A stretch of 64,000 nt of DNA from Rhodospirillaceae bacterium (GTDB taxonomy: Bacteria; Pseudomonadota; Alphaproteobacteria; Reyranellales; Reyranellaceae). Each line of letters begins with the position of its first letter. Position 1 is the first letter of the stretch. A program made the position numbers and the translations under genes. Below, piece after piece: positions 17,399 to 22,122 of this stretch. The notes below the pieces were generated by a model that saw nothing but the letters and a program-made list of their open reading frames with translations, had not been told where the DNA came from and searched no databases. The DNA lies in the NCBI GenBank assembly GCA_009772935.1, contig WOUR01000016.1, forward strand, positions 1 through 64,000. The letters run 5' to 3'.

Positions 17399-18604
17399 CT
17401 ACAGAACGGCCGCGAGGCGCTGGAGCCCCTCGCGGGTGGTCTTCTCGTCATGCACCAGCGCCACGCGGATGTAGCGCTGGGAGATGTTGATGCCGTTGGT
17501 TTCGCGGCAGGCATAGGCACCCGGCAGCACCTTGACGTGCGCCTCGCCCCACAGCCTGCGCGTGGCCTCCTCGCCGTCGCCGACGTCGAGCCACAGGAAG
17601 AACCCGCCGCCCGGCGTGTAGTAGGAGAAGCGGTTGTGCAGGATCTGCTCGGCGATCCGGAAGTTCTTCACGTACCATTCGCGCGTCTGGACGGGATGCG
17701 TCTCCTCGCGCCACAGCGCGGCCGACGCCTTCTGGACGGCAAAGGGAATCTGCGGGCCGCCATAGCTGCGCCAGCGCAGCACCAACGCGACCAGCTTCGG
17801 GTCGCCGGCCATGAAGCCCGAGCGAAGACCCGCCGCGTTCGACCGCTTCGACAGCGAGTGGAACACCGCGAGATTGCGGAAAGGGTCCTTGGCCCCGGTC
17901 TCGTCGATCTCGAGGGCGGCCTCGAGCGCACCCGTCGGCGGGGCGCCGGTGTAGATCTCGGCGTAGCACTCGTCGACCGCAAGTACGGTGTCGTACTTCC
18001 GGCAGAGCCTCAGCAGCTTCTGCAGGTACTCCTTGCTGGCGATCGCGCCCTGCGGATTGGCCGGCGAGCAGAGATAGACCACCGACATCCGCCGCCAGGT
18101 CGCTTCGTCGAGGCTCTCATAGTCCGGCAGGAAACCGTTCGAGGCTTCGGCGTTGACCAGCAGCGGCTCGCCGCCCGACAGGACCGCACCGCCGAGATAG
18201 GCCTGGTAGAAAGGGTTGGGCAGCGCGACGATCGGCTTGCCCCCGCCCTTCTCCTGCGGCGTCGCCACGGTGGAGATGATGTAGACACCTTCCTTGCTGC
18301 CGGCCGTCGGATGGACGTGCAGGTTCGGATCGAGCAGGCCCTGGGGCAGCTTGTAGCGGCGCGTCAGCCATTCGCAGATCGCGAGGTTGAGGTCGGGCAG
18401 GCCCTGGTTGGGCGGATAGCGATTCCAGCCATCGACTTCGTCGATCACGATCTGCCGCGCGAACGCCGGCATCGCGCCCTGCGGCTCGCCCACCGACATG
18501 TTGATCATCGAGAGATGCGCCGGCGGCGCGATGGGAGCAATGAGGGCGTTCAACCGCGCAAATGGGAAATCGGTCAGCGTCTCGGTCAGGCGCGGATTGA
18601 ACAT
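17399..18604 (-). CDS. dapC: Class I/II aminotransferase, DapC-like
   Basis: This 401-residue PLP enzyme of fold type I most resembles N-succinyldiaminopimelate aminotransferases of the lysine/peptidoglycan precursor pathway. The PLP lysine is in HSLSKRSNAAGLR, and the cofactor Asp-x-x-Tyr is in AVDECYAEIY. The glycine-rich FYTPGGGFFLWL-like segment (YYTPGGGFFLWLDV) and the phosphate-binding Arg near RYIRVALV are present. Start ATG 18604 is preceded by GGGAACGAGA; an in-frame TTG at 18616 is less likely. Substrate assignment is by family resemblance only. It is transcribed toward ftsK with a 15-nt gap. Confidence 0.8.
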   Translation of the reverse strand: MFNPRLTETLTDFPFARLNALIAPIAPPAHLSMINMSVGEPQGAMPAFARQIVIDEVDGWNRYPPNQGLPDLNLAICEWLTRRYKLPQGLLDPNLHVHPTAGSKEGVYIISTVATPQEKGGGKPIVALPNPFYQAYLGGAVLSGGEPLLVNAEASNGFLPDYESLDEATWRRMSVVYLCSPANPQGAIASKEYLQKLLRLCRKYDTVLAVDECYAEIYTGAPPTGALEAALEIDETGAKDPFRNLAVFHSLSKRSNAAGLRSGFMAGDPKLVALVLRWRSYGGPQIPFAVQKASAALWREETHPVQTREWYVKNFRIAEQILHNRFSYYTPGGGFFLWLDVGDGEEATRRLWGEAHVKVLPGAYACRETNGINISQRYIRVALVHDEKTTREGLQRLAAVL

Positions 18605-18677
18605 TCTCGTTCCCAATGGGCCAAAGCGGCCGGAAAAATGCCACGGTGCCGGCCAAGGACGACCAGCCTATCGCCAC

Positions 18678-18706
18678 ATTCTATGGAACAAATTAGCCAA
18701 TCACAA
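18678..18706 (-). promoter_or_regulatory. Probable sigma-70 promoter for dapC-ftsK
   Basis: On the minus strand, TTGTGA (complement of 18701-18706) and TAGAAT (complement of 18678-18683) are separated by exactly 17 nt in a locally AT-rich stretch. Transcription would start near 18671, about 67 nt before the aminotransferase ATG. Confidence 0.5.
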
Positions 18707-18836
18707 CAAGGGAATAGGCTTGTTTCTTGAGATGAAGGAAGGGCTTGCGGCCCCTGTCCCGCCAACCACAAGCACTAGTCCGGGCATGGCGCCGCAGGCG
18801 CGCCGGAATGCCTATCCCGCGATCAGCCGCTTCGGC

Positions 18837-19235
<399 letters not shown>

Positions 19236-19364: not shown

Positions 19365-20702
19365 CTAGTGGATCGTCTCGCCGTGCAGGTTGATGTCGAG
19401 ACCCTCGATCTCTTCCTCGGTCGTCACGCGCAGCCCGATCAGGGCATCGACGATCTTGAGGATGATGAAGGTGGCGACCGCGCACCAAGCGATGCAGACC
19501 AGCGAGCCCCAGAGCTGCGTCAGGACCTGGCCGGCGTTGCCGTCGATCAGCCCCTTCTTGCCCTCGCCGCCGATCACTTCCACGGCGAAGACGCCGGTCA
19601 GGATGGCGCCGACGAAGCCGCCGATGCCGTGCACGCCGAACGCGTCGAGCGAGTCGTCGTAGCCCATCGCCTTCTTGAGGCCGGTGGCGCCCCAGAAACA
19701 GACCAGGCCGGCGATGATGCCGATGGCCAGCGCGCCCATCGGCGTCACGAAGCCCGAGGCCGGGGTGATGGCGACGAGACCGCCGACGGCACCCGAGATG
19801 ATGCCGAGGACCGACGGCTTGCCGCGCGTCACCCACTCCGCGAACATCCAGGCCAGAGCGGCCGCGGCCGAGGCGAACTGGGTGACCGCCATCGCCATGC
19901 CGGCATTGGGGCTGGCGCCGACGGCGGAGCCGGCGTTGAAGCCGAACCAGCCGACCCACAGCAGGGCGGCGCCGATCACGGAGTAGACGAGGTTGTGCGG
20001 CGCCATGTTCTCGGTGCCGAAGCCCTTGCGCTTGCCGATGACGAGGGCGCAGACGAGGCCCGCCACGCCGGCGTTGATGTGCACCACGGTGCCGCCGGCA
20101 TAGTCGAGAACACCCCAGTCGCCGAGGAAGCCGCCGCCCCACACCCAGTGGGCGATGGGCGCATAGACGATCAGCGACCACAGCGCCATGAACCACATCA
20201 TGGCCGAGAACTTCATGCGCTCGGCGAAGGCGCCGGCGATCAGTGCGGGCGTGATGATGGCAAAGGTGAGCTGGAAGCACATGAAGACGGTCTCGGGAAC
20301 CGTCTTGGCGAGGTCATGCACGCTGTCGAGCCCGAGGCCAGCCATGAAGATGCGGCCGAGCCCACCAACGATCGAGCTGCCCGGCGTGAAGGCCAGACTG
20401 TAGCCGACGATCAGCCACAGTACGGAAATCATGCAGGTGATGGCGAAGCTCTGCATCACCGTCGACAGCACGTTCTTCTTGCGAACCATTCCACCGTAGA
20501 ACAGGGCGAGGCCCGGAATGGTCATCATCAGCACCAGCGCCGTCGAGGTGAGCATCCACGCCGTATCACCGGTATCGAGCTTGGGCGCGGCCGCCGCCGG
20601 AGCCGGCGTCGCGGCAGCCTGGGCCAGCGCCAACGCCGGCAGGAGCAGCACTGCGGCCGCCCCCGCGCCGGCAAGCACCGAGTTGGTCTTGAACTTCATC
20701 AT
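19365..20702 (-). CDS. amtB: Ammonium transporter AmtB
   Basis: A 445-residue inner-membrane ammonium channel with an N-terminal signal sequence (residues 1-24, ending ALALAQ) and eleven transmembrane helices. Recognisable parts are TGDTAWMLTSTALVLMM and FYGGMVRKKNVLS. The first pore His is in VVHINAGVAG and the second in FGVHGIGGFVGA. It acts as a trimer gated by PII. Start ATG 20702 has AGGGGA upstream; ATG 20699 is the alternative. A PII gene lies 35 nt upstream, the classical glnK-amtB pair, and a second PII gene follows. Confidence 0.96.
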   Translation of the reverse strand: MMKFKTNSVLAGAGAAAVLLLPALALAQAAATPAPAAAAPKLDTGDTAWMLTSTALVLMMTIPGLALFYGGMVRKKNVLSTVMQSFAITCMISVLWLIVGYSLAFTPGSSIVGGLGRIFMAGLGLDSVHDLAKTVPETVFMCFQLTFAIITPALIAGAFAERMKFSAMMWFMALWSLIVYAPIAHWVWGGGFLGDWGVLDYAGGTVVHINAGVAGLVCALVIGKRKGFGTENMAPHNLVYSVIGAALLWVGWFGFNAGSAVGASPNAGMAMAVTQFASAAAALAWMFAEWVTRGKPSVLGIISGAVGGLVAITPASGFVTPMGALAIGIIAGLVCFWGATGLKKAMGYDDSLDAFGVHGIGGFVGAILTGVFAVEVIGGEGKKGLIDGNAGQVLTQLWGSLVCIAWCAVATFIILKIVDALIGLRVTTEEEIEGLDINLHGETIH

Positions 20703-20737: not shown

Positions 20738-21118
<381 letters not shown>

Positions 21119-21131
21119 TCAATTCGACGCG

Positions 21132-21148
21132 AGCAAAGGTCGTGCCAA
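21132..21148 (-). promoter_or_regulatory. Sigma-54 promoter of glnK-amtB
   Basis: Read on the minus strand this is TTGGCACGACCTTTGCT. It matches the -24/-12 consensus, with GG and GC the correct 10 bp apart. Transcription would start near 21121, about 45 nt upstream of the glnK ATG. Confidence 0.85.
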
Positions 21149-21175
21149 ACCGCGCCCGACAAATTGCATCCTCGC

Positions 21176-21192
21176 TTGGCACGCCCCTTGCA
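21176..21192 (+). promoter_or_regulatory. Sigma-54 promoter of the TorF-family porin gene
   Basis: TTGGCACGCCCCTTGCA matches the -24/-12 consensus. The invariant GG is at 21178-21179 and GC at 21190-21191. Transcription would start near 21203, a leader of about 30 nt. It is arranged back to back with the glnK promoter, 27 bp apart. Confidence 0.85.
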
Positions 21193-21234
21193 CGGATTGG
21201 GGCGGAAACAAGTCATAAGTCTTTGGGGGTGGTC

Positions 21235-22122
21235 GTGTTGCTTAAAAAAACCGCTGTTCTGGCTACGTCGCTGATCACATTCTATGCATCCAGCGCTGCC
21301 TATGCACAGGGTACGCCAGATCCGCAGACCGTTACGGTCACGCAGGATCAGCAGGTAGCGCAGGGAACGCCCGATCCGGCCACCACGCCGGCGGCGCCGG
21401 AGAAGGAGACCTGGAAGGCTCCGTTCGGTGGCACCTTCACCGCCGGCTTCGCGGTTCTCAACGACTACTCCTATCGCGGCATCTCGCAGACCCAGCGCCA
21501 GATCGCCGTCCAGGCCGCCCTCGGCTACGAGACCCCCACCGTCAGCGAGAAGATCCCGCTCAGCGCCTATGTCGGCGCCTGGGGCTCCAACGTGAACTTC
21601 CCCGGCACCGGCACGACCGCCGAGATCGACCTTCTCACCGGCCTGAAGCTCAAGCTCCTCGACGACAAGCTCACCTTCGACCTGGGCTACATCCGCTACA
21701 ACTATCTCAGCGCCCCCTCGAACCTGTTCTACGACTTCAGTGAGTTCGGCCTCGTCGCCGGATACGATTTCGGCGTCGCCCAGGTCAGCGCCGCCGTCCG
21801 CTACAGCCCCAACTTCTTCGCCAACTCGGGCAACGCCTGGTACAAGTGGGCCTCGGTCACCGTTCCCATGCCGTTCCTCCACGTCAACGACAACGTGGCG
21901 TTCAAGGCCTTCGGCACCATCGGCAACCAGTATGTCGAGCGCTTCGTCAACTACGGCATTCCCAACGACAACTACTGGGACTGGCAGCTCGGCCTCGTCG
22001 TCTCCGTCTACGGCTTCGACCTCTCCGCCGTCTATACGGGCACCAATCTCAGCGTCCAGGACTGCCTCGGCACCCAGAACTGCGCCAGCCGCGTCATCCT
22101 CGGCATCGCCAAGGCGTTCTGA
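21235..22122 (+). CDS. TorF-family putative porin (Gcw_chp domain)
   Basis: A 295-residue outer-membrane beta-barrel candidate. The signal peptide ends SSAAYA-Q near residue 22, followed by a low-complexity linker with two copies of QGTPDP. The barrel begins at GGTFTAGFAVLNDYSYRGISQTQ, a hallmark start of this family, and ends with an aromatic C-terminal residue (AKAF) as outer-membrane proteins do. A possible disulfide lies in QDCLGTQNCAS. Start GTG 21235 follows GGGGG; GTG 21229 and TTG 21238 are alternatives. The sigma-54 promoter implies nitrogen-regulated expression, so the pore may admit ammonium or organic nitrogen; that is inferred from position only. Confidence 0.85.
   Translation: MLLKKTAVLATSLITFYASSAAYAQGTPDPQTVTVTQDQQVAQGTPDPATTPAAPEKETWKAPFGGTFTAGFAVLNDYSYRGISQTQRQIAVQAALGYETPTVSEKIPLSAYVGAWGSNVNFPGTGTTAEIDLLTGLKLKLLDDKLTFDLGYIRYNYLSAPSNLFYDFSEFGLVAGYDFGVAQVSAAVRYSPNFFANSGNAWYKWASVTVPMPFLHVNDNVAFKAFGTIGNQYVERFVNYGIPNDNYWDWQLGLVVSVYGFDLSAVYTGTNLSVQDCLGTQNCASRVILGIAKAF

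Follow-up and report, generated by a model that had tools for sequence, protein, structure and literature searches.

Between the glnK-amtB genes of an ammonium-uptake cluster and a divergently transcribed gene for a TorF-family porin, two sigma-54-type promoter elements are placed back to back. We consider this arrangement probably to be a compact bidirectional sigma-54 promoter, activated by NtrC under nitrogen scarcity and producing GlnK-AmtB together with a TorF channel for a scarce nitrogen source. Under a shortage of fixed nitrogen, the phosphorylated form of NtrC would most likely activate sigma-54 polymerase at both -24/-12 elements, with the leftward output supplying GlnK-AmtB and the rightward output supplying TorF, a predicted 12-strand outer-membrane channel. 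TorF would then widen the outer membrane for that source, for which ammonium or a small organic cation is the most plausible candidate, such that supply to AmtB, or to other inner-membrane uptake, would not be limiting. On this basis, a widespread porin family would gain a likely physiological context in nitrogen scavenging. The locus also offers a natural system in which two sigma-54 promoters lie ~32 bp apart with no visible enhancer, which suits tests of enhancer need and sharing.

Two exact sigma-54 elements between glnK1 and torF

The window, i.e., the whole 64-kb stretch of DNA that was analyzed, had been described in a sequence-only reading as carrying two -24/-12 elements that face away from each other, 27 bp apart. 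Examination of the DNA confirmed two exact elements, back to back, with 27 bp between the TTGG starts. The features of the region are:

21132..21148, minus strand: sigma-54 (-24/-12) element of glnK1-amtB-glnK2, TTGGCACGACCTTTGCT, read from 21148 down to 21132
21149..21175, no strand: spacer separating both -24 elements, 27 bp from TTGG to TTGG (29 counted between the TGG triplets)
21176..21192, plus strand: sigma-54 (-24/-12) element of torF, TTGGCACGCCCCTTGCA
21095..21111, minus strand: GC hairpin in the glnK1 leader, directly before the Shine-Dalgarno sequence, kept in 15 aligned leaders
20738..21076, minus strand: glnK1, PII protein (PF00543, 1.6e-32)
19365..20702, minus strand: amtB, ammonium transporter (PF00909, 2.1e-124; TIGR00836 above cut-off)
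18837..19175, minus strand: glnK2, second PII gene (PF00543, 1.4e-32)
~21235..22122, plus strand: torF, TorF-family putative porin (PF09694, 8.1e-23; TIGR02001, 5.6e-33; both above cut-off)

Both elements carry the GG and GC dinucleotides and the TGGCAC-N5-TTGC spacing by which sigma-54 promoters are recognized, and the transcription starts predicted from these motifs would lie ~45 nt upstream of the glnK start codon (ATG) and ~30 nt upstream of torF. The genes glnK1-amtB-glnK2 extend leftward of the pair, with torF and then a ubiH-type gene rightward. The start codon of torF is uncertain (GTG at 21229 or 21235, or TTG at 21238), and the encoded protein scores 114.5 bits vs. a cut-off of 47.15 for TIGR02001 and 82 vs. 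24 for PF09694.

Within the window, the exact motif TGGCACG-N4-TTGC occurs only at 21133-21147 (minus strand) and 21177-21191 (plus strand). Allowing up to two mismatches gave 19 matches vs. 28.9 expected and, because these looser matches do not exceed expectation, the exact pair alone is meaningful in the window. Across the 6.01-Mb genome, TGGCACN5TTGCW has eight sites (two in the reversed control), two of which constitute the glnK1/torF pair. Strict pairs would arise by chance at ~2e-4 per 6 Mb, according to a composition calculation that assumed a GC content of 65.5% and a spacer of 15-45 bp.

The hairpin of the glnK1 leader was considered as a candidate riboregulator and rejected: it is conserved, yet none of its six pairs is doubly changed among the 15 aligned leaders, i.e., no double-sided covariation was detected. 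The sequence CTTTGGGGG is common to both leaders. Further leftward (17399-19175), the gene after glnK2 is dapC-like, an order likewise found at loci L020, L021, L029 and L048, and a second amtB (62-71% identical) lies downstream of glnK2 in 13 related loci.

Retention of the promoter pair in relatives

Judged by the TorF protein, Reyranella and Rhodospirillales metagenome bins come nearest (95-88%), and Reyranella aquatilis stands at 86%; the glnK upstream region of a further locus from the genus of the window's genome (L002) is identical to that of R. aquatilis (L024). Of 75 family genomes, 17 carry a strict back-to-back pattern (spacer 15-45), against none in the reversed control. In all 17 loci glnK1 adjoins the pair, with torF opposite in the 15 whose fetched stretch extends there. 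A relaxed pattern matched 43 of the 75 family genomes, every one within the genus, while spacers of 46-76 bp were matched in two genomes, both again at glnK/torF loci. In a class-wide sample, the pair pattern occurred in 5 of 289 genomes, three of them in the genus.

The sequence-only reading had made its case depend on both motifs being kept in relatives that share the gene order, and it holds up well on this point: of 35 distinct glnK1 upstream regions retrieved by way of torF, 28 contain both elements. Three of the other seven come from other genera of the family (L158, L159 and L172) and two from distant bacteria (L054 and L058), while L048 is a second glnK copy and L049 retains the left element only. 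All seven regions fetched by the pair pattern also carry both elements, which is no test of conservation because they were retrieved through that pattern itself. Over 42 distinct glnK1 upstream regions, both elements score at least 10/13 in 35 and at least 11 in 32. The maintenance of the back-to-back arrangement across many relatives points to a role of the channel in nitrogen scavenging.

The barrel encoded opposite glnK1 can be of another type. In three genomes of the genus without a TIGR02001 match (G035, G040 and G051), the pair is retained with a 28-bp spacer; their divergent gene encodes a BBP2 barrel (PF07642, 9.2e-72 in L211). The contigs of G035 and G040 end within the barrel gene, and the order of the BBP2 gene followed by ubiH was read on another contig (L299). 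PF07642 is present in 10 of 65 genus genomes, and in a fourth genome lacking torF, G039, a close BBP2 gene was found, with glnK absent from the 4.5 kb fetched; G041, G058 and G063 are further examples of genomes with no torF. When TorF was aligned with BBP2 by blastp, the best match scored 25 bits across 79 residues (E 0.002, computed against this one sequence), and the two proteins appear to have no clear relation by this measure, though that is not proof of none.

The TorF family and its link to sigma-54

The tie between porin and nitrogen regulon proposed in the earlier reading is partly borne out beyond the genus, as the TorF family is linked to sigma-54 and, in part, to glnK-amtB. TIGR02001 was matched in 62 of 289 alphaproteobacterial genomes and in 207 of 397 genomes of a phylum sample. 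From the alphaproteobacterial set 63 matches were fetched, leaving out the weakest and the window's own, and 62 loci were retained once L135, with its match at a contig start, had been removed. In the 260 bp upstream of these genes, a sigma-54 score of at least 11/13 was reached at 16 of 62 loci, vs. 0.25 (Markov) or 0.5 (other windows) expected and one on the reverse strand; at a threshold of 10/13 the count was 29 of 62, vs. 2.4-2.6 expected and three on the reverse strand. Most sigma-54-type alphaproteobacterial TorF genes are not beside glnK, since glnK or amtB lies inside the fetched stretch in only 8 of 63 rows.

A second set comprised 60 non-alphaproteobacterial loci, high-scoring, one per genome and not random, with at least one eligible genome (G581) skipped. 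Scores of at least 11/13 were found at 15 of these 60 loci (0-0.3 expected; none on the reverse strand) and of at least 10/13 at 27 (~2 expected). At 17 of the 60, glnK lies within 1.5 kb of torF—as torF-glnK-amtB on one strand in 16 cases and as glnK-amtB-torF in one (L279)—and 14 of these glnK-linked loci score at least 10, 11 of them at least 11. Sigma-54-like promoters thus precede a sizeable minority of TorF genes, many more than chance would give, yet they are not a universal feature, because 33 of 62 alphaproteobacterial and 33 of 60 non-alphaproteobacterial loci score below 10.

Predicted structure and possible substrate of TorF

Structure prediction from 29 related sequences gave TorF 12 strands; pLDDT is mostly above 90 in the barrel and below 50 for residues 1-56. 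This suggests that the protein is an outer-membrane beta-barrel. Its closest structural matches were KdgM and NanC (4pr7: Z 16.7, rmsd 2.4, 168 aligned; 2wjq: Z 15.9, rmsd 3.0, 187 aligned), along with VhGalP, and identity to the KdgM/NanC structures is 6-12%. Other barrels are nearly equal (Z 14-15.7) and, because they score so close behind, the likeness to KdgM/NanC is better taken as one of fold class than of family. A sequence profile search of the PDB returned no convincing TorF relative (best E 0.13), and the two chains with E of 1 or below are neither KdgM nor NanC.

Among the residues that face inward and are kept in at least 85% of rows, seven are acidic (E130, D132, D149, E170, D178, D249 and D262) and five aromatic (Y112, W116, Y155, Y157 and Y247); the conserved inward basic residues are K140 and R286. 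Inward or outward parity was judged by hydropathy, and the assignment is a sequence-based estimate rather than a computed pore. A cation path is favored because the conserved lumen residues are mostly acidic or aromatic; such a lumen would fit ammonium or organic cations and proves neither. KdgM and NanC pass anionic sugars, whereas the conserved lumen charges of TorF are mostly acidic, despite the 12-strand barrel that is predicted for TorF and shared with these porins. A Shewanella gene named torF is annotated as a porin of the TMAO reductase system (PMC5955497), a link with a small nitrogen compound that goes no further than the name.

When every inward strand residue of the window's TorF is counted, acidic residues outnumber basic ones by 8 to 5, a mild bias only. 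Together with the absence of glnK or amtB near most TorF loci examined, and with the BBP2 replacement, which suggests that a generic barrel may suffice, this leaves appreciable room for a different reading—that TorF is co-induced with nitrogen genes yet is no nitrogen channel, acting instead as a general porin or as an envelope-adjustment protein of starved cells. We regard this as a real, if lesser, possibility, given that the glnK-amtB linkage of torF recurs in distant classes, that the conserved inward charges stand at seven acidic vs. two basic and that the Shewanella annotation involves a small nitrogen compound, albeit by name.

Relation to known nitrogen-regulated systems

A published precedent exists for the link to the nitrogen regulon. 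In Herbaspirillum seropedicae, expression of the nlmA(orf1)-glnK-amtB operon depends on NtrC and is switched on when nitrogen is limiting (PMC3023670); NlmA, a nitrogen-limitation membrane protein, is placed by the authors most probably in the periplasm. This gene order resembles the torF-glnK-amtB order of 16 of the 60 non-alphaproteobacterial loci and, on gene order only, NlmA may be a TorF-family (TIGR02001) protein; its periplasmic placement does not favor an outer-membrane barrel. The two systems also differ in layout, with one operon in H. seropedicae and divergent units with two back-to-back promoters in Reyranella. The promoter region that serves glnK and an amtB-type neighbor is bound by NtrC in Caulobacter (PMC10274813). 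Because the Herbaspirillum operon is NtrC-dependent and Caulobacter NtrC binds at glnK, the regulon link is an extension of what is known. Nitrogen limitation would probably induce the pair in the window's organism.

Additionally, several porins are lowered in an ntrC mutant of Burkholderia cenocepacia (PMC5491218), and one paper lists a 'TorF family putative porin' among the proteins recovered from gold particles. The open-licence literature yielded nothing under TIGR02001 or Gcw_chp, and the part of it that was searched held no description matching back-to-back sigma-54 promoters, nor any of so tight a divergent geometry, of an exchange of the porin or of a promoter link across the family.

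Candidate activators of the pair

The window's genome encodes RpoN (TIGR02395, 7.8e-119) and an NtrB-NtrC type pair, in which a PF00158 protein with GAFTGA (read by eye) lies beside an NtrB-type kinase. Also present are an NtrX-like protein without GAFTGA and a second possible activator, a regulator with a GSFTGA loop; these names were assigned by reading the sequences and by PF00158 matches, of which the fourth is weak. A sigma-54-like site ~63 bp before the rpoN start codon (L313, ~1548, reversed strand) suggests that rpoN may be autoregulated in this genome.

Since glnK-amtB is a classical NtrC target, NtrC is the likely activator at the pair, and the sequence-only reading had placed its enhancers inside or beyond the transcribed regions. 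This proposal has so far found no support. In the 2 kb around the pair, no TGCACY-N5-RGTGCA site was detected at 9/12 or better, vs. 2.46 expected, which leaves a weak or diverged site possible; a search around the pair and in relatives likewise returned nothing consistent. Weak NtrC-like matches at -122 in several relatives apparently fall in torF signal-peptide codons, as read from sequence. The 5' codons of glnK1 show no reduced synonymous variation among 40 sequences, and a hidden enhancer in this gene was rejected as codons 17-40 are its most variable part. As the sequence-only reading also suggested, the two promoters may share an enhancer or compete for one.

Across the TorF family, NtrC-like sites were counted 20-220 bp upstream of promoters scoring at least 10 (28 alphaproteobacterial and 27 non-alphaproteobacterial). 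At 10/12 or better, they occur at 13 of 27 non-alphaproteobacterial promoters (0.98 expected; in-gene control 0) and at only 1 of 28 alphaproteobacterial ones (0.74 expected), while at 9/12 or better the alphaproteobacterial count was 11, vs. 5.1 expected and four in the in-gene control. Elsewhere in the window's genome, a gene that by its start resembles one for a transporter binding protein (L311) is preceded by a sigma-54-like site, and an NtrC-like site, TGCACAAAAAGAATGCA, lies at -99.

The promoters could thus be real sigma-54 promoters served by something other than enhancer-bound NtrC, namely the genome's other response regulator of the GAFTGA type (L291) or NtrC that works from solution. 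The lack of an NtrC site near the pair, the regulator with GSFTGA, the missing GAFTGA of the NtrX-like protein and the little enrichment of NtrC sites at alphaproteobacterial TorF promoters all fit such a scheme. We nevertheless consider it unlikely, in view of the classical standing of glnK-amtB as an NtrC target, the binding of Caulobacter NtrC at glnK, the NtrC-like sites at non-alphaproteobacterial torF promoters and the site at -99 within the same genome.

Spacing of the pair and other tight sigma-54 pairs

The geometry of the pair is narrowly confined. Among the 28 torF-found regions that carry both elements, 27 have a spacer of 25-31 bp, as do 34 of all 35 two-element regions, the remaining one having 49 bp; beyond this set, longer spacers of 38 bp (G054) and 48 bp (G048) were observed. 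The spacer sequence varies freely between relatives and, because it drifts while its length is near fixed, spacing rather than the sequence of a protein-binding site appears to be constrained. Although the -24 halves do constitute an inverted repeat, CGTGCCAA-N27-TTGGCACG, it is highly improbable that this repeat serves some DNA-binding protein as a symmetric operator and does not represent two promoters, as the outer TTGC stands at the correct distance on both sides in 35 of 35 two-element regions (selected on GG and GC, not on TT), the spacer is variable in length, from 25 to 31 bp and beyond, and single sigma-54-like elements precede torF elsewhere.

Twelve further back-to-back pairs, not beside glnK and with spacers of 21-24 bp, were found in 11 other genomes of the genus (L213-L220, L222-L224 and L226), near the middle of most loci. 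By Pfam, which was applied to seven flanking proteins at four loci with the remainder read by eye, these pairs are flanked by NMT1-type, SBP_bac_6 or DctP solute-binding proteins together with an FAD/NAD(P)-type oxidoreductase or 2OG-Fe(II) oxygenases. The mean GG-to-GG distance is 31.7 bp at glnK (the 49-bp case left out) and 26.6 bp at the non-glnK pairs—~3.0 and ~2.5 helical turns of 10.5 bp, respectively—with pair counts that are not independent because the genomes are related. We tentatively put forward, as a rather doubtful generalization, that in Reyranella a fixed-geometry, enhancer-poor bidirectional sigma-54 promoter may be a reusable module. Two holoenzymes would sit back to back, ~3.0 turns apart for glnK/porin and ~2.5 turns for the unrelated transporter/oxygenase loci, and one activation would fire both directions, pairing an envelope or transport protein with a cytoplasmic partner; the porin would be swappable (TorF for BBP2) and the geometry constant.

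Divergent sigma-54 units are also said to occur in Caulobacter, where a 1993 study by Mullin and Newton reportedly concerns the flagellar units flaN/flbG and names downstream elements ftr2 and ftr3 in its title. Like glnK/torF, these are divergent units with a sigma-54 promoter, but they differ in being flagellar and in having FlbD as activator. Finally, in another alphaproteobacterium (L320, G297) a pair with a 40-bp spacer lies between two flagellar-looking genes, of hook and hook-length type as judged by eye.
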